Made by a program: the position numbers and the translations under genes. Shown one piece after another: positions 4,761 to 13,373 of a stretch of 64,000 bases of DNA; the first letter of the stretch is position 1; each line of letters starts with the position of its first letter. A model generated the notes under the pieces. It ran no database searches and was not told the origin of the DNA. It saw only the letters and a list, made by a program, of their open reading frames with translations. The stretch spans positions 179,689 to 243,688 of the IMG/VR virus record IMGVR_UViG_3300042541_001760; one strand, written 5' to 3'. The DNA is from a virus.

Positions 4761-6113
4761 TTAATTATTTCTAATAATGATATATTGTTTTTCTAAAACA
4801 TATTCAGAATCATACGAACCATCATAACCATTCATAATTCCGTATCCATCAGAATCGACTAATCCTTGAGCCATAGCATCAACATCAACCCAATCTTTAA
4901 CAGGCATCTCCCACTCTTTTAACTTATCAAGAGGGTCATTCATTATATCACGCATTATTTCATCAACTTTTTCTTCAATCTGCGCTGGTGTTGGTTCTCT
5001 TACTCTATTTTGGATTTCCTCAATTTCTTCGTTCATTGCGTCAATCTGCTCTTCGTAATTATTCCATTCGTCAGAATTTATATCAGTTTCAGATTGTAGG
5101 TCTTCCATTTGACTTATTTTATTTTCAAGTTCTTCAATATGTTCTTCTTCTTCATCGGTAGGTCCAAAATCGTTTTCATCAAAATATACATCTGTGTTGT
5201 TCATAACATCATCCTCATAATGACTTCTAAAGAAGTATTCAATTCCACTCTCATCCAAATAATCTTCAACAAACCCCGTATTATAATTGTCAACACCAAG
5301 ATCATCTATTGAGTCTTTTGCATATCGTAAAGCCTCGGCGTCCGCTTCTTCCTCACTACCCACACGATATTCTCTACCTGAAAGATCACCAGTGATAATA
5401 TCAAAATTTAACATACTATTTCTATACCTACCCCCCGGTATTAATGAATATACATCCATTTTATTTTCTAAGGCTTCAATATCCTCCTCAATTGCGTCTA
5501 TATTTCCTTGTAATTCACCGGTATCGTTTCCTTGTTCTTGGTCATAAAGTAATCCACCTAACATTTCTTTAAGTTGTCTTAATTCAACTTCTTCTTCTTC
5601 CGTTATAAACATATCAGATTCTTCCGAAGATAGGTATTGAAATAAGGCTTGAGCTCTCAATCCATCGTAGTCCTCATTTTCAATTGCCCATTCATTTCTC
5701 TCCCTTCTTAGCTGAGCATCCGCCAACAATCCATTTATTCTAATACGTTCTCTCTTTCTCGCTATTGGTGTTCCTCCATCCCATATACTTCCCGTTACGG
5801 TAACTCCATCAATAGATGATATTTCAGATCTGGATATATCCAACCTTCCATCAACATATTTTATTGGACCCATACTTTTAAACGAATCGTTATTTAAATT
5901 TAAACCCCCATTTATCTTAACCTTTTTACCTCTAAACATTTTTGTTTTAGCCAAAAAGTCCAAATTATTATTTGCTCTCTCAGCGTATTTTTTAAATTCA
6001 TCTCCGGTCATCTCAATCCACTGCTCTTCATTTTGAACATCTTCTGTTTGTTCAATAACTAACTTAACTATATTCTCAAGGTCAGATTCCTTTAATTTAA
6101 TAATTCTTGCCAT
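4761..6113 (-). CDS. Acidic hypothetical protein with N-terminal leader; candidate packaged head protein
   Basis: The 450 aa product begins with an amphipathic helix, IIKLKESDLENIVKLVIE (residues 4-21), then Q. A hydrophobic-X-Glu end to a short leader is the pattern cut by T4 gp21 prohead protease in head-targeted internal proteins. Related leaders occur on other proteins in this window. The mature part has a short segment resembling a repeat unit (GPIKYVDGRLDISRSEISSI) and long Glu/Asp/Asn-rich coiled-coil stretches. A TATTTATA element lies 22 nt upstream. The function of the mature part is unknown; head packaging is inference. Confidence 0.7.
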   Translation of the reverse strand: MARIIKLKESDLENIVKLVIEQTEDVQNEEQWIEMTGDEFKKYAERANNNLDFLAKTKMFRGKKVKINGGLNLNNDSFKSMGPIKYVDGRLDISRSEISSIDGVTVTGSIWDGGTPIARKRERIRINGLLADAQLRRERNEWAIENEDYDGLRAQALFQYLSSEESDMFITEEEEVELRQLKEMLGGLLYDQEQGNDTGELQGNIDAIEEDIEALENKMDVYSLIPGGRYRNSMLNFDIITGDLSGREYRVGSEEEADAEALRYAKDSIDDLGVDNYNTGFVEDYLDESGIEYFFRSHYEDDVMNNTDVYFDENDFGPTDEEEEHIEELENKISQMEDLQSETDINSDEWNNYEEQIDAMNEEIEEIQNRVREPTPAQIEEKVDEIMRDIMNDPLDKLKEWEMPVKDWVDVDAMAQGLVDSDGYGIMNGYDGSYDSEYVLEKQYIIIRNN

Positions 6114-7857: not shown

Positions 7858-8658
7858 ATGAAATATATTAATTTAAATTCAAAAAAAGGTTTAGTAAATT
7901 TATTCGCCGATTACATAGTTAAAGAGTTTAGTCACAATACTATGATACAAGTTTCAGATTGTGGGGCATTCTTCTTAGTCAAAGGTAAAACAGATAAAGA
8001 AGAGTATGTTGATTTAAACGAAATAAAGAAAACATTCTTAAGTGACAATAAAAACAATTATCAATTTTTAGGTTTAGAGAATATTAATATCATTGATATT
8101 ATTGAGTATGATACTGAAATCCTACCTAAAGATAGATGGCATTCGTTTTATCCCACTGAGAGACCTATATACACTCAATCTGTTATAGATAGACACGAAG
8201 ACCTGATTAACACAATAAACTCGTTAAATGAGGTTAATGGTAGGTCTGTTATTGAATCTGAGGAGGAGGTTATCGGTTTTGATTATTATGAATACCCATC
8301 TATGATTATAACATCAGAATTTCCTTATGGTTATGGTTTGGATACAGGTAGATTGGGTTACTACTATTCTGAATATATTGTCAATCATTTGTTTAACATT
8401 ACCAACTCATCAAGTATTGATTTTAGATTCTCAAGTCAGGTTGATGATGATATGGAAGTTAAAATAGACATATCTTTATATGATAGTTTATTACCTAACG
8501 AATATATTAAATCTATGGTGTTGGATGTATTTAATTTTGATGTGTCCGAACTTAAAAATGAATTACAATCTTATGACTTGTTGGATGACTTAAAGGATCC
8601 TTTTGGTAAGAAGCCTTGGTTGGTTAAGGATATGATTGGGGATATTGTTGTTATTTAA
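7858..8658 (+). CDS. Hypothetical protein, 266 aa
   Basis: A soluble alpha/beta protein without signal peptide or recognised motif; Tyr/Asp/Asn-rich, with a conserved-looking GYGLDTGRLGYYYSEYIVNHLF segment in the middle (named here only by its first and last parts: GYGLDTGR and YIVNHLF). It is convergent with the first paralogue of the tandem family, overlapping it by 8 bases. Function unknown. Confidence 0.65.
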   Translation: MKYINLNSKKGLVNLFADYIVKEFSHNTMIQVSDCGAFFLVKGKTDKEEYVDLNEIKKTFLSDNKNNYQFLGLENINIIDIIEYDTEILPKDRWHSFYPTERPIYTQSVIDRHEDLINTINSLNEVNGRSVIESEEEVIGFDYYEYPSMIITSEFPYGYGLDTGRLGYYYSEYIVNHLFNITNSSSIDFRFSSQVDDDMEVKIDISLYDSLLPNEYIKSMVLDVFNFDVSELKNELQSYDLLDDLKDPFGKKPWLVKDMIGDIVVI

Positions 8659-8995
8659 ATTTATGATTCCAACGGTGGATATCGTATTTATAAGTCCATA
8701 AAGGTGTTACCTCCTTTAATTTGTAAACCTCATCCAACCATTTTTTTATAGTTGATTGGATATCTCCGTAGTTAAGATGAAATAATAATTCAATTTTCGA
8801 CCAAATATCGTCATTGTGAATATAAACACGCTCAGTTTTCTTATCGTATTCCATTAAAACCTGATTATTATCATTTACATAATATATTGAGTCAGGATAA
8901 TCCTTATGTTTCTTTTGTGTTAAATTACCAAAGTGCTTGTTTAACCACTTGATAACAACCCTCTCTAACTGATGTTCATTTACTTGTATGTTCAT
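8651..8995 (-). CDS. Tandem paralogue family protein, copy 1
   Basis: This 114 aa protein begins MNIQVNEHQLERVVIKWLNK, then HFGNLT and a beta-rich middle (SIYYVNDNNQVLMEYD), and ends with a helix rich in Trp. Three neighbours share the same start and layout. The N-terminal helix resembles the leader helix of the candidate packaged proteins (IxVxExxLxxVV), but no hydrophobic-X-Glu site follows. Function unknown. It is the last gene of the operon that includes the surface-protein genes. Confidence 0.7.
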   Translation of the reverse strand: MNIQVNEHQLERVVIKWLNKHFGNLTQKKHKDYPDSIYYVNDNNQVLMEYDKKTERVYIHNDDIWSKIELLFHLNYGDIQSTIKKWLDEVYKLKEVTPLWTYKYDIHRWNHKFK

Positions 8996-9005
8996 ATTCT
9001 ATTTT

Positions 9006-9350
9006 TCAATTTCTAAGTTCTTCCCAATTGAAAATGGATGCGTTACTGTTTCTGATTGGTCTCACACCCTTCAATTTGTAAGTATCTTCCAACCAAACCT
9101 CAATAATTGATTTGATGTCATTGTGTCCAATGTGAAATATATTTTCCAAATGTGACCAAATATCACCATAATGAATATAGACATATTCACTTAGTTTAAT
9201 GTATTGAAGTATAACATTATTACTAGAATCCACATAAAATACCACATTAGGAAAATCCTTATGTTTCTTTGGTGTTAAGTTACCTAAGCGTTTGTTTAAC
9301 CACTTGATGACAACTCTCTCCATTTGATTTCTATTTACCTGTACGTTCAT
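9006..9350 (-). CDS. Tandem paralogue family protein, copy 2
   Basis: A 114 aa paralogue of its neighbours: same N-terminal helix (residues 1-20), GNLTPKKHKD, a central strand pair with DSSNNVIL, and a C-terminal EVWLEDTYKLKGVRP. It starts within the last bases of copy 3's reading region (4-base overlap), so the copies are translated from one message. Function unknown. Confidence 0.7.
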   Translation of the reverse strand: MNVQVNRNQMERVVIKWLNKRLGNLTPKKHKDFPNVVFYVDSSNNVILQYIKLSEYVYIHYGDIWSHLENIFHIGHNDIKSIIEVWLEDTYKLKGVRPIRNSNASIFNWEELRN

Positions 9351-9715
9351 ATTCTATTTTTTAATTTATAGGTCTCCTCCAACCAAATAAGGCCATCCGG
9401 CCAATTGAAATCATTATCCATTGGTCTTACTCCCTCCAATTTGTATGTCTCTTTCAACCATACCTTCATAATTGAATGAATTACATGATAGTTAAGGTGA
9501 AATAACGATTCAACTTTTCCCCAAATATGATTATAATCGATATAAAAATTTTCATACTCCGGATTGTATTCCATCATAACCTTATCATTAGAATTTACGT
9601 AAAATACTGAGTCAGGATAATATTTATGTTTCTTTTGCGTTAAATTACCAAAGTGATTGTTTAACCACTTGATAACAACCCTCTCTAACTGATGTTTATT
9701 TACTTGTATGTTCAT
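9347..9715 (-). CDS. Tandem paralogue family protein, copy 3 with duplicated tail
   Basis: A 122 aa paralogue starting MNIQVNKHQLERVVIKWLNN. Its C-terminal WLKETYKLEGVRP element is followed by a second partial copy, WLEETYKLKNRI, giving the longer length. It overlaps the T9SS-domain gene upstream by 4 bases and copy 2 downstream by 4 bases. Function unknown. Confidence 0.7.
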   Translation of the reverse strand: MNIQVNKHQLERVVIKWLNNHFGNLTQKKHKYYPDSVFYVNSNDKVMMEYNPEYENFYIDYNHIWGKVESLFHLNYHVIHSIMKVWLKETYKLEGVRPMDNDFNWPDGLIWLEETYKLKNRI

Positions 9716-10308
9716 TTAATTAATAATATTTTACCATAAATATCTTTATACCCACGATTAAACCCCTTATATACTATATGGTATACGTAAACATCTTCCT
9801 GACATATTTGACCCTTATAAGTTCCATTCCATTGTTTATTAATATCATCACTTTCAAATATTAATTCACCCCATCTATTAAATATTGTAATATTAAACTT
9901 ATCAACACCGAATCCATAAGCCCCGAAAGTTTCGTTTAGATTGTCATCATTTGGTGTAAATGCGTTTGGGACATAGATGCTTAACTCAGGACACCCCTCA
10001 ACTTTTACAATCACTTCGGTTTGTGAGATACAATTACCATTTGTGTATTGAGCAACTATGGTATACTGACCTGGATCATCCCACCTAACAAATAAAGTAT
10101 TATCGTTTAATCCTTGTGCGTTCACACTAGGTTCTACTATCCAACGACTTTGATAACCCGGTAATCCATCAACCCAATATTTTTTATCAATATACAATGT
10201 ATCACATAAATTTATTATCTGAGGTTCGTTACGTATCTGTGTGTTTAATGAACCACTTAATAATAAAATAAAGACAATTAATATTGTTTTTAAATATGGG
10301 TATGACAT
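9712..10308 (-). CDS. Secreted protein with T9SS type B (gliding-motility-associated) C-terminal sorting domain
   Basis: The 198 aa protein has a signal peptide (hydrophobic residues 7-19, likely cut after about residue 24), an Ig/PKD-like middle (about 30-105) and a C-terminal domain of about 85 residues starting IYVPNAFTPNDDNLNETF, with FNITIFNRWGELIFES and W-N-G-T-Y-K-G after it. This is the pattern of type B sorting domains in Bacteroidota, which carry proteins through the type IX system to the cell surface. It is the third of three successive exported-protein genes (1 nt gap to the previous one). Finding it among phage genes is unusual. It depends on the host for T9SS. Confidence 0.88.
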   Translation of the reverse strand: MSYPYLKTILIVFILLLSGSLNTQIRNEPQIINLCDTLYIDKKYWVDGLPGYQSRWIVEPSVNAQGLNDNTLFVRWDDPGQYTIVAQYTNGNCISQTEVIVKVEGCPELSIYVPNAFTPNDDNLNETFGAYGFGVDKFNITIFNRWGELIFESDDINKQWNGTYKGQICQEDVYVYHIVYKGFNRGYKDIYGKILLIK

Positions 10309-10309
10309 T

Positions 10310-10876
10310 TTAATCTGTGTATATAACCGGTGTTGATGGTGGTGGTGTTATCGTTATTGACCCACTACCACTCATAGGGCATCCATTAGCATCTGTTGAT
10401 GTGAATGTGATTGGGTAAACTCCTGTCGCTAATCCTGTTGCGTTAAATACCGATCCGGTAACACCAGTTCCGGCAAATACAGGATTAGTCCCAAGTGGAT
10501 TGGATGTTAAGTTTATTGTTCCGTTTCCTTGACATAAGGCATCAACTATAACAACAGGTATTGTTGGTGGTAGTACGGTTATCGTTGCCGAACTAGTTGA
10601 ACTACATAAACCAATAGTTTTGGTTATGGTAATTGTGTATGTCCCCGCAACAGACCAAGTGACTTGTATTTGGTCACCACTTGATATTGATGTAAATGGA
10701 ACTGCTGGTACTATACTAAAAGTATATGTCGCCAATGGGTCAATAACTTGGTCACCATAAACTTGAACATCGTTCAAACAATAAGTGTTGTTATTTGCCG
10801 AATTCGGTGTTGGTACTTGTCCGTAACCTAATAGGGTTACCAATAAAAATCCAAGAATAATTATAATCTTTTTCAT
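10310..10876 (-). CDS. Secreted Ig-like/PKD-like domain protein
   Basis: The 188 aa protein has a clear signal peptide (MKKIIIILGFLLVTLLGYGQ) and then two beta-sandwich repeats of the kind found in Bacteroidota secreted adhesins, with paired cysteines and GTYTITITK and GSGSITITPPP segments. It lacks any sorting or anchor domain of its own and ends shortly after STPVIYTD. It lies 1 nt from both flanking exported-protein genes, so co-translation and assembly with them are likely. The specific ligand is unknown. Confidence 0.75.
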   Translation of the reverse strand: MKKIIIILGFLLVTLLGYGQVPTPNSANNNTYCLNDVQVYGDQVIDPLATYTFSIVPAVPFTSISSGDQIQVTWSVAGTYTITITKTIGLCSSTSSATITVLPPTIPVVIVDALCQGNGTINLTSNPLGTNPVFAGTGVTGSVFNATGLATGVYPITFTSTDANGCPMSGSGSITITPPPSTPVIYTD

Positions 10877-10877
10877 A

Positions 10878-12254
10878 TTAATTTGTGTAAACTGATACTG
10901 TTATACCACCCGGTGGTATGTTTATTGTTTTATTTATTGTTGTTGATGTACAAGGTCCGTTAATGGTTAATGAAACATTATAAGTCCCTGATAATAAATA
11001 TGCGTGAGTTGGATTTTGTTGTATTGAAGTTTGACCATCACCAAAATTCCAAAAATACGTATATAAGTTATTCTGATTAACACAATTGTTAGTTATCGTA
11101 GGTGACTGAAATGATGCGGTGGTGCAACTTATGGTTGGGTTGGGTAATATGTATTGGGGTTGGACATAAAATGACGCAAAGTTAGGTAATCCGAATCTAC
11201 CTGCCCTACTCACAAGTGGTATGGATAAGTCCGAGTAGTTACACCCGACTCCATAAACATTGGGATTATTTATAACGGATAATGATGTATTATTCCTCGC
11301 AACATAAACCTTACCATCAGGTCCTAATTGAATTGACCCTATGAAAGCGCCTGCGTTTGATACGACTCTACGGCTAGCCTGTATCTGTGCTTGAGTTCCC
11401 GCACATAAATCCCATTGTAATAACATACCTTGGTTTGTCCCACCATATAATATTCTACCGTCAGGCGAGAATTCACATCCATAGATACCCGTCTCGTTTG
11501 ATAGGGTAAATCCCCCTGATGCGAAACCTGTGGATGGGTCAAAATTATGTAACTCAATCTTATTCATTCCATAGTGACACGCCGCCAACCTTCTTCCGTT
11601 TGGTGATGCCTTTAATTGTCCATAAGCGGATTGGGGTACTCCTGATACAACAGACCCGGATATTGACCAAGTAGTAATACTAGGGACACCAACATTATCC
11701 ACCAACCAAGAGGTAAATACATTTGTATTCCAATCGTGTGATAAGACCCAAACATCAACATTATTACAATGTCTGACGGCACATAACTTTTCACAGGATG
11801 GTGTTTTTAGTTGGGTATTCTTTGTTGTGACCGCACCTAACCCCACACTTAAACTCATATCAACAATTGAGTAACATATACCATTAACTCCAGCATCGTT
11901 ATCCGAAGTGAAGATATAATATATGTTGGGTTGATTTGGTTTCTGAACTATGACGGCTGATTGTGTGGATGAAACATCACCGAATAAACCAGTACCATTT
12001 GTCATAACCAAATGGTTTTTATTCCAAACGGTAATCCCGTTGGTATAGAATAATAGATTACCCAAATTATCTGATATGGTTGCCACCCCTTCAATAGTGG
12101 TTAAGGCTCCATTGGTTAAAGCAACAGGAGACCCTGAGTTAAAGGTTATCCCCGCATTTGTCCCAAAATACCAATTAGTACTCGGACCGGGTATTTGTGA
12201 ATATCCGATAACATAAAGTAATGAAAATAATATTATAAGTTTTAACTTTATCAT
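10878..12254 (-). CDS. Secreted beta-propeller plus PKD domain protein
   Basis: The 458 aa protein has a signal peptide ending GYSQ, a long N-terminal repeat region opening with NWYFGTNAGITFNSGSP and FYTNGITVWNKNH (about residues 25-370, beta-propeller-like, with SPNGRRLA, SPDGRILYGG and GPDGKVYVA blades), and a PKD domain near 385-450 with YFWNFGDGQTS. This arrangement is typical of flavobacterial secreted proteins, where a T9SS domain normally follows in the same chain; here the chain ends at SVYTN and the sorting domain is in a separate gene. It overlaps the barrel gene upstream by 4 bases. Confidence 0.8.
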   Translation of the reverse strand: MIKLKLIILFSLLYVIGYSQIPGPSTNWYFGTNAGITFNSGSPVALTNGALTTIEGVATISDNLGNLLFYTNGITVWNKNHLVMTNGTGLFGDVSSTQSAVIVQKPNQPNIYYIFTSDNDAGVNGICYSIVDMSLSVGLGAVTTKNTQLKTPSCEKLCAVRHCNNVDVWVLSHDWNTNVFTSWLVDNVGVPSITTWSISGSVVSGVPQSAYGQLKASPNGRRLAACHYGMNKIELHNFDPSTGFASGGFTLSNETGIYGCEFSPDGRILYGGTNQGMLLQWDLCAGTQAQIQASRRVVSNAGAFIGSIQLGPDGKVYVARNNTSLSVINNPNVYGVGCNYSDLSIPLVSRAGRFGLPNFASFYVQPQYILPNPTISCTTASFQSPTITNNCVNQNNLYTYFWNFGDGQTSIQQNPTHAYLLSGTYNVSLTINGPCTSTTINKTINIPPGGITVSVYTN

Positions 12255-12919
12255 TCCTTAATACGAATGGTTAGACCAACGTCTAATCCTATCATATAAG
12301 TATTAAATGAATTGTCAATAACTATTGGTGTTAAATTTGTTCTACCATAAACTGATGTAGTTAGTCCAACACCCTCAATTATATTCATATACAAACCACC
12401 TCTAACAAAAACCCCTAAATAAGTTTTAACCGTTTTATAATCGTATATTTCAACATCATATGTAAAATCATTACGATTTGTTATTATCCCATCACCAAAT
12501 ATCATATTTAAAGATGGACCTATTTCAAAATATAAACTTTGACCAATGGATGGGTAGTATGTCAATAAGGGAGATATGGAAACACCATCTATTTGTATTG
12601 TCTTATCAATATACTTTAACTCATTAAAATTAACACCATTCGGTATGATTCTAATATCCTGATTTATTCTTGTTTTATTTGTCTCCAATTTAATACCCCA
12701 AAATTTATTCTGATAATAACCATTCTCAAAATATCTCGCAAACGAAAAACCATATGAACTAGCATAGGTTATTCTTCTTTCATTTCTTAGATCGGTAAAT
12801 GATGTGTTCGGTATGTTTAATGTTGTAATCCCTCGATTAAAATTACCACTAATGGTATAGACTTGGGATAAGAGTGGGGACGACAGTAATACGCATAAAA
12901 CCAGTAAAAACTTTTTCAT
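12251..12919 (-). CDS. Outer-membrane beta-barrel protein
   Basis: The 222 aa product has a signal peptide (MKKFLLVLCVLLSSPLLSQ) and about eight alternating hydrophobic strands ending in an aromatic/glycine-rich C-terminal strand (MIGLDVGLTIRIKE), which fits the small OmpA-like or OMP_b-brl barrels of Bacteroidota. In hosts, a PorP/SprF barrel is often encoded beside T9SS type B cargo; this one is shorter than SprF, so equivalence is only a suggestion. It is the first gene of the exported-protein operon, behind a terminator and a TATTTATA element. Confidence 0.72.
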   Translation of the reverse strand: MKKFLLVLCVLLSSPLLSQVYTISGNFNRGITTLNIPNTSFTDLRNERRITYASSYGFSFARYFENGYYQNKFWGIKLETNKTRINQDIRIIPNGVNFNELKYIDKTIQIDGVSISPLLTYYPSIGQSLYFEIGPSLNMIFGDGIITNRNDFTYDVEIYDYKTVKTYLGVFVRGGLYMNIIEGVGLTTSVYGRTNLTPIVIDNSFNTYMIGLDVGLTIRIKE

Positions 12920-13061: not shown

Positions 13062-13373
13062 CTAATCATAAGTGGCACCAAAAACTTCTTGAACGTCAAT
13101 ATCGTATGTTTCGTACATCCATTTTGGGACTATAGTTCTAACATCAACATAAGTTAATTTAAACATATTAACCAAACTCATAAGAATATCATTATTCACA
13201 TGTAAAATACCATTATCAGTATTATAATCCATCATCTGTTTATTATTATGGTTAAAATAAAATACCGTATCGGTAAAATATGAAATCTCTTTTAGTGTTA
13301 AGTTACCGTAGTGTTTATTTAACCACTTGATAACTACTCTTTCCAATTGATGTTTATTTACTTGTATGTCCAT
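13062..13373 (-). CDS. Tandem paralogue family protein, detached copy 4
   Basis: A 103 aa paralogue of the three genes at 8651-9715: MDIQVNKHQLERVVIKWLNK, then HYGNLT, the central NHNNKQMMDYN strand pair and a C-terminal PKWMYETYDID. It lies on the other side of the surface-protein operon, so the family flanks that cassette. A TATTTATA element sits exactly 4 nt before its ATG. Function unknown. Confidence 0.7.
   Translation of the reverse strand: MDIQVNKHQLERVVIKWLNKHYGNLTLKEISYFTDTVFYFNHNNKQMMDYNTDNGILHVNNDILMSLVNMFKLTYVDVRTIVPKWMYETYDIDVQEVFGATYD

Follow-up and report, generated by a model that had tools for sequence, protein, structure and literature searches.

Can a phage encode an adhesin for the type IX secretion system (T9SS) of its host as several separately exported chains, and what would hold such chains together? 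The question is raised by an operon in a 64,000-nucleotide stretch of viral DNA (the window), positions 179,689 to 243,688 of IMG/VR record IMGVR_UViG_3300042541_001760. Four intact open reading frames (ORFs) on the minus strand at 9712-12919, separated by 1-nt gaps or a 4-nt overlap, form serial genes for a small barrel-like protein and for three chains that we call head, middle and base (Table 1). A sequence-only reading had described four adjacent genes at these coordinates, in a phage, with exported products; the coordinates are correct, the window lies within a 261 kb virus record (G000), and each of the four proteins begins with a signal-peptide-like N-terminus as judged from hydropathy and inspection. 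We consider it moderately probable that the operon encodes a three-chain type B T9SS adhesin, assembled via C-terminal tails and displayed through a single sorting signal.

The sorting signal lies on the base chain

The C-terminal domain of the base chain aligns with T9SS type B sorting domains, as the earlier reading had proposed, scoring 53.4 bits on TIGR04131 (cut-off 35, E 2.1e-14, profile positions 2-83 of 85) and 56.6 bits on PF13585 CHU_C (cut-off 27, E 2.8e-15). Neither the head nor the middle chain carries such a domain. The head propeller is of the NWYFGTN type, as in Bacteroidota proteins bearing sorting domains, and the PKD/immunoglobulin-like (Ig) character of the middle chain is weak in Pfam (20.1 bits versus a cut-off of 27), with a relative from the same family exceeding the cut-off on PF19408 PKD_6. 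The further claim that one adhesin is split in three, with the sorting signal on the last chain only, gains support from dozens of viral contigs and from single-chain homologues, described below.

The cassette genes are under purifying selection (ratio of nonsynonymous to synonymous substitution rates, dN/dS, ~0.13-0.30 for the window versus a homologous four-gene operon at locus L016), and therefore do not represent a decayed or frameshifted host gene, a possibility also ruled out by the presence of the same split in many phages.

Both junctions appear to divide an Ig-like domain

Aligned with the split chains, ten single-chain loci read straight through the junctions. Where a single chain runs ..NPPVPVISPITYN-DTICYQSP.., a head ends in ..VLGPISHN-stop and its middle continues with Q-LTTTNPDTVCYQ..; where another runs ..YPQPEVLAITPN-DEFIQICEGDS.., a middle ends in ..PTLSPIQHN-stop and its base continues with QQLIELCAGES... 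Because these homologues read through both junctions, the stop and the new signal peptide are read in each case as falling after strand A and before strand B of an Ig/PKD domain. The PKD_6 match of a middle-chain relative begins at profile position 10 of 82, that is, without the first strand. With the cut in this position, each tail resembles the strand that the following chain's domain lacks at its start, and the natural inference is that this strand would be supplied in trans.

The tails themselves are short and conserved. Only 3 of the 382 ORFs of G000 end in Y[TSN][DNE], namely the head, the middle and a 329-aa exported chain encoded elsewhere in the record. Between the window and L016, where the head is 81%, the base 45% and the barrel-like protein 49% identical, the signal peptides have diverged and the tail ends ITVSVYTN and IYTD are identical; the end of the middle tail (IYTD/IFTN) is also kept in relatives at ~50% identity. 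Among the 36 distinct ORFs lying directly upstream of a short base chain, 34 end in [ILV]-x-[HT]-[DN] and 35 have a signal-peptide-like start, compared to a background of 7 motif endings in 723 other ORFs of the same contigs. Six of these seven fall among the 94 background ORFs with a signal peptide, and five of the six are apparently further cassette chains.

Cassettes are modular and recur in Bacteroidota viruses

A search of viral contigs with the base chain returned 445 viral relatives. In the best 80 loci, a sample that is skewed towards the query and includes near copies, 53 encode a short separate base chain and 27 a single long chain of 489-819 aa, which in some cases is truncated at the end of the contig. 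The middle chain retrieved 11 viral loci with split cassettes, again some cut by contig ends, and these carry three unrelated head types. At L031, a homologue of the 329-aa chain of G000 replaces the propeller head, ahead of middle and base homologues. Head chains are interchangeable, with the middle and last chains conserved, and the cassette is a possession of many Bacteroidota viruses, not a one-off. In G000 itself, the 329-aa chain (G000:106149-107138, plus strand) has no sorting domain and is an orphan head with tail VELYTD and no middle or base adjoining; it could use the middle and base chains of the window as an alternative tip. It is the third exported chain of interest in the record, the second being a single-chain type B protein of ~850 aa (G000:88742-91318).

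Some split cassettes lie on Crassvirales-like contigs, recognized by a virion protein related to those of Cellulophaga phage phi14:2 and Bacteroides phage DAC15, and there sit shortly ahead of an endolysin gene. A split cassette (L129) and a single-chain form (L126) share one genomic position, flanked by tail tube and baseplate hub genes. At L130:4813-6561, head, middle and base share one frame with only TAA stops between them, so that stop read-through would yield one polypeptide. Two phage genomes of >630 kb, LR745206.1 (L014) and LR756502.1 (L015), contain four and three type B sorting-domain matches, respectively, several of them in long single chains.

Weighing the explanations

The case for strand complementation rests on sequence comparison, not on structure. 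We modelled with AlphaFold2 the natural in-frame head-middle-base of L130, with its TAA stops read through as residues, and the corresponding region of a single-chain form; the alignments were shallow, and the signal peptides of L130 lay within the modelled chain. The middle and base domains of L130 were modelled well, and the single-chain model was confident overall (predicted local distance difference test, pLDDT, 86). Several results weigh against an assembled adhesin. The tail of the L130 middle chain was left undocked (residues 387-396, pLDDT <50), and in the single-chain model both tail segments were ordered yet formed isolated bridges only, with no regular strands. No isolate phage with the cassette was found in the phage collection, in searches that included the head, barrel and middle chains. 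In favour of assembly, by contrast, a midpoint-rooted tree of the middle and base regions places the single-chain forms as one group nested in the split forms, the pattern that fusion of interacting partners would give; the root is not fixed, however, and one ancient split is also possible.

An undocked tail would also fit an explanation in which I-x-[HT]-[DN] is a sorting or processing tag recognized by some protein of the host, or else a T9SS signal of a minor kind, with the chains reaching the surface separately and uncomplexed. Strong, short, C-terminal conservation fits a tag as well. However, the tail matches the first strand of a domain that continues in the single-chain homologues, and we know of no T9SS signal that resembles it, making a tag unlikely. 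Some cassettes are embedded among tail genes (L129, and L126 in its single-chain form), which suggests another explanation, in which the chains are virion parts such as tail decorations that retain ancestral signal sequences, and Ig-like domains are common on virions. Signal-peptide-like N-termini are nevertheless kept on every chain though their sequences diverge, the type B sorting domain is intact and under purifying selection, and no window protein matches a structural PHROG family at E 0.001 or better, so we regard a virion role as distinctly improbable. It is also conceivable that the base chain acts as a decoy that occupies a PorP/SprF shuttle or the SprA translocon and strips the host of adhesins used as phage receptors, leaving head and middle as ballast. 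Short base chains do carry little beyond the sorting domain, and no shuttle was found in the phages searched, but heads are long, varied and under purifying selection, unlike ballast, and we give the decoy very little credence.

Proposed mechanism and role

Under the assembled-adhesin explanation, Sec would carry each chain across the inner membrane. Once in the periplasm, the N-terminal domain of the middle chain, which lacks its A strand, would be completed by the head's orphan C-terminal strand, and the tail of the middle chain would likewise complete the base chain; since the tails are alike, several middle chains could perhaps be strung together. The host T9SS would then export the folded complex via the type B signal of the base chain, using a host PorP/SprF shuttle, and the head would be displayed on the infected cell. 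It is from sequence, again, that we infer chain assembly. Expression is probably late, because the neighbours of cassettes in related phages are tail or endolysin genes.

The role of the displayed complex is the weakest step of the explanation. The sequence-only reading had named superinfection exclusion, receptor masking, aggregation and diversion of the secretion system as possible roles. We tentatively prefer receptor masking or superinfection exclusion, as would suit a surface protein that is made late and has diverse heads; an adhesin to bind adjacent cells would suit equally well and comes a close second. Belief is evenly balanced on whether the operon represents a general class of multi-chain T9SS fibres in Bacteroidota phages, and rarely in their hosts, with interchangeable tips, repeatable middle links, trans-complementation of split Ig/PKD domains and a piggy-back ride on one type B chain, by which the host surface is repainted late in infection. 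If the chains do assemble as proposed, it would follow that T9SS can export complexes of several chains, assembled beforehand, on the strength of a single sorting signal, with consequences for the size and the degree of folding that its cargo may have. Bacteroidota phages, including crAss-like phages, would gain a common modular tool to alter the host surface; the swappable heads would be candidate receptor blockers or adhesins, and tails, heads and bases could be exchanged as an assay.

The barrel-like protein and the shuttle

The sequence-only reading had also described the 222-aa first protein as an outer-membrane barrel and had noted that such adhesin parts in Bacteroidota normally come with a PorP/SprF partner. 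A small outer-membrane beta-barrel is plausible from its sequence, and the protein matches no Pfam or NCBIfam family. The partner identity is not borne out: PF11751 (PorP/SprF) gave no match in G000 or in any of ten further phage records searched, with four matches in a Kordia genome as positive control, which rules out the barrel gene as PorP/SprF, and the barrel gene is present in only two of the cassettes seen. An exported 325-aa protein at G000:123028 was rejected as PorP/SprF on reading and on the same absence of PF11751 from G000. A cognate PorP/SprF gene near the cassette is likewise absent; such a neighbour is common, not universal, for type B substrates. A host shuttle would be needed because none was found in the phage records searched. 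Its use is plausible in view of F. johnsoniae, where three orphan type B substrates, likewise without such a neighbouring gene, rely on a common shuttle (PMC12618676).

Host genomes

Host relatives of the propeller head mostly continue, within one chain, into a sorting domain at the C-terminus. In 396 Bacteroidota genomes we found no close relative of the middle chain as a separate protein and, among the matches listed for 297 genomes, no base chain of <220 aa apart from one at a contig edge. With a wider middle-chain profile and eight candidates scored per genome, 3 of 395 genomes proved to hold split cassettes on host contigs (L177, L181 and L178, Table 1). Their split chains end in similar tails, ruling out a design confined to phages.

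Genomic neighbourhood

The cassette's own neighbours in the window are not structural genes. On both sides it is flanked by paralogues of 100-120 aa that start M(N/D)IQVNxxQxxRVVIKWLNKxxGNLT. Many unrelated proteins open with a sequence of the form I(K/R)LTESDLTRI(V/I)KRVI.E, by appearance a shared peptide for targeting or prohead cleavage. In crAss-like contigs, cassettes are accompanied by an exported protein of 155-172 aa, and in G000 a similar exported protein (G000:87584-88102, minus strand) is encoded immediately upstream of the single-chain type B protein. Other exported phage proteins finish with a few residues that resemble the opening of a type A sorting domain (e.g. YYGIDGKLLKR, YDLAGRLLRN), possibly as truncated signals. 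A run of sugar-nucleotide and glycosyltransferase-like genes at G000 ~18300-41300, read from ORFs, is a possible further means to alter the host surface.

Table 1. Features of the operon, of its record (G000) and of related loci. Positions refer to the window unless a record or locus is named.
Feature	Position	Strand	Description or basis
Barrel-like chain	12251..12919	-	222 aa; first gene of operon; ORF
Head chain	10878..12254	-	458 aa; signal peptide, NWYFGTN-type beta-propeller, PKD domain, putative orphan C-terminal strand
PKD domain of head	10938..11075	-	residues 394-439; PF18911 (PKD_4) 45.3 bits, cut-off 27
Head tail ITVSVYTN, proposed donor strand for middle	10881..10904	-	unchanged in L016; motif statistics; junction alignment
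Middle chain	10310..10876	-	188 aa; signal peptide, two PKD/Ig-like domains, putative orphan C-terminal strand
Proposed acceptor domain of middle, without first strand	10574..10819	-	residues ~20-101; suggested by alignment with single-chain phage homologues
Middle tail STPVIYTD, proposed donor strand for base	10313..10336	-	motif statistics; junction alignment
Base chain	9712..10308	-	198 aa; signal peptide, Ig-like domain, T9SS type B sorting domain
Proposed acceptor Ig domain of base	9994..10239	-	residues ~24-105; suggested by alignment with single-chain homologues
T9SS type B sorting domain	9721..9975	-	base residues 112-196; TIGR04131 and PF13585
M(N/D)IQVN paralogues	8651-9715 and 13062-13373	- (four ORFs)	also G000:158157-158522
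I(K/R)LTESDLTRI(V/I)KRVI.E proteins	4761-6113; G000:46932, 104926, 139059; L115:108, 363, 2292
155-172 aa exported protein	L037:5485-5952, L039:5485-5952, L031:5526-5999
Type A-like short endings	G000:123028-124005, G000:172112-173125; L079:8033-8809; L080:8072-8845 and 10670-11674
Host split cassette L177			tail AIYHN
Host split cassette L181			tails INAN, IIAN; three chains
Host split cassette L178			tails IQHRN, IQHKD; type A base

Comparison with known systems

SprB-like type B (TIGR04131/CHU_C) proteins of Bacteroidota likewise combine a signal peptide, Ig/PKD modules and a type B C-terminal domain (PMC9143113, PMC12618676), and the head type of the window forms the N-terminus of one-chain host proteins that end in a sorting domain. 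In contrast to SprB-type proteins with their PorP/SprF shuttles, the phage cassette comprises three chains, and no PorP/SprF gene adjoins it or occurs in its record. Cryophage (Bellas et al. 2020, PMC7468147) also encodes T9SS cargo that varies between phages and for which a surface role was proposed, but there the sorting domains are of type A, attached to an endoglucanase, a glycoside hydrolase and a PA14 protein, and neither a split nor donor tails are reported. Phage-encoded T9SS cargo is thus already known in type A form, and the split type B cassette is apparently undescribed: neither such a cassette, nor the tail motif, nor trans-complementation between T9SS cargo chains turned up in a search that left most subscription papers and all preprints outside.

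Type V fimbriae (FimA/Mfa) of Bacteroidales are also built from separate exported subunits, for which donor-strand complementation is proposed (PMC4789730). The phage chains differ in that none in the window matches a fimbrillin-type domain in Pfam or NCBIfam, and in strand geometry, as the strand donated here would be the first of the domain in the next chain. To our knowledge, fimbrillins carry no T9SS sorting domain. The closest solved folds for the Ig/PKD region, which match in sequence too, are fragments of the grappling hook protein GhpA of Aureispira (PDB 9flp, 9fls and others), a bacterium in whose predation T9SS takes part (PMC12421860). GhpA is a single chain of ~5900 residues, whereas the phage cassette consists of short separate chains.

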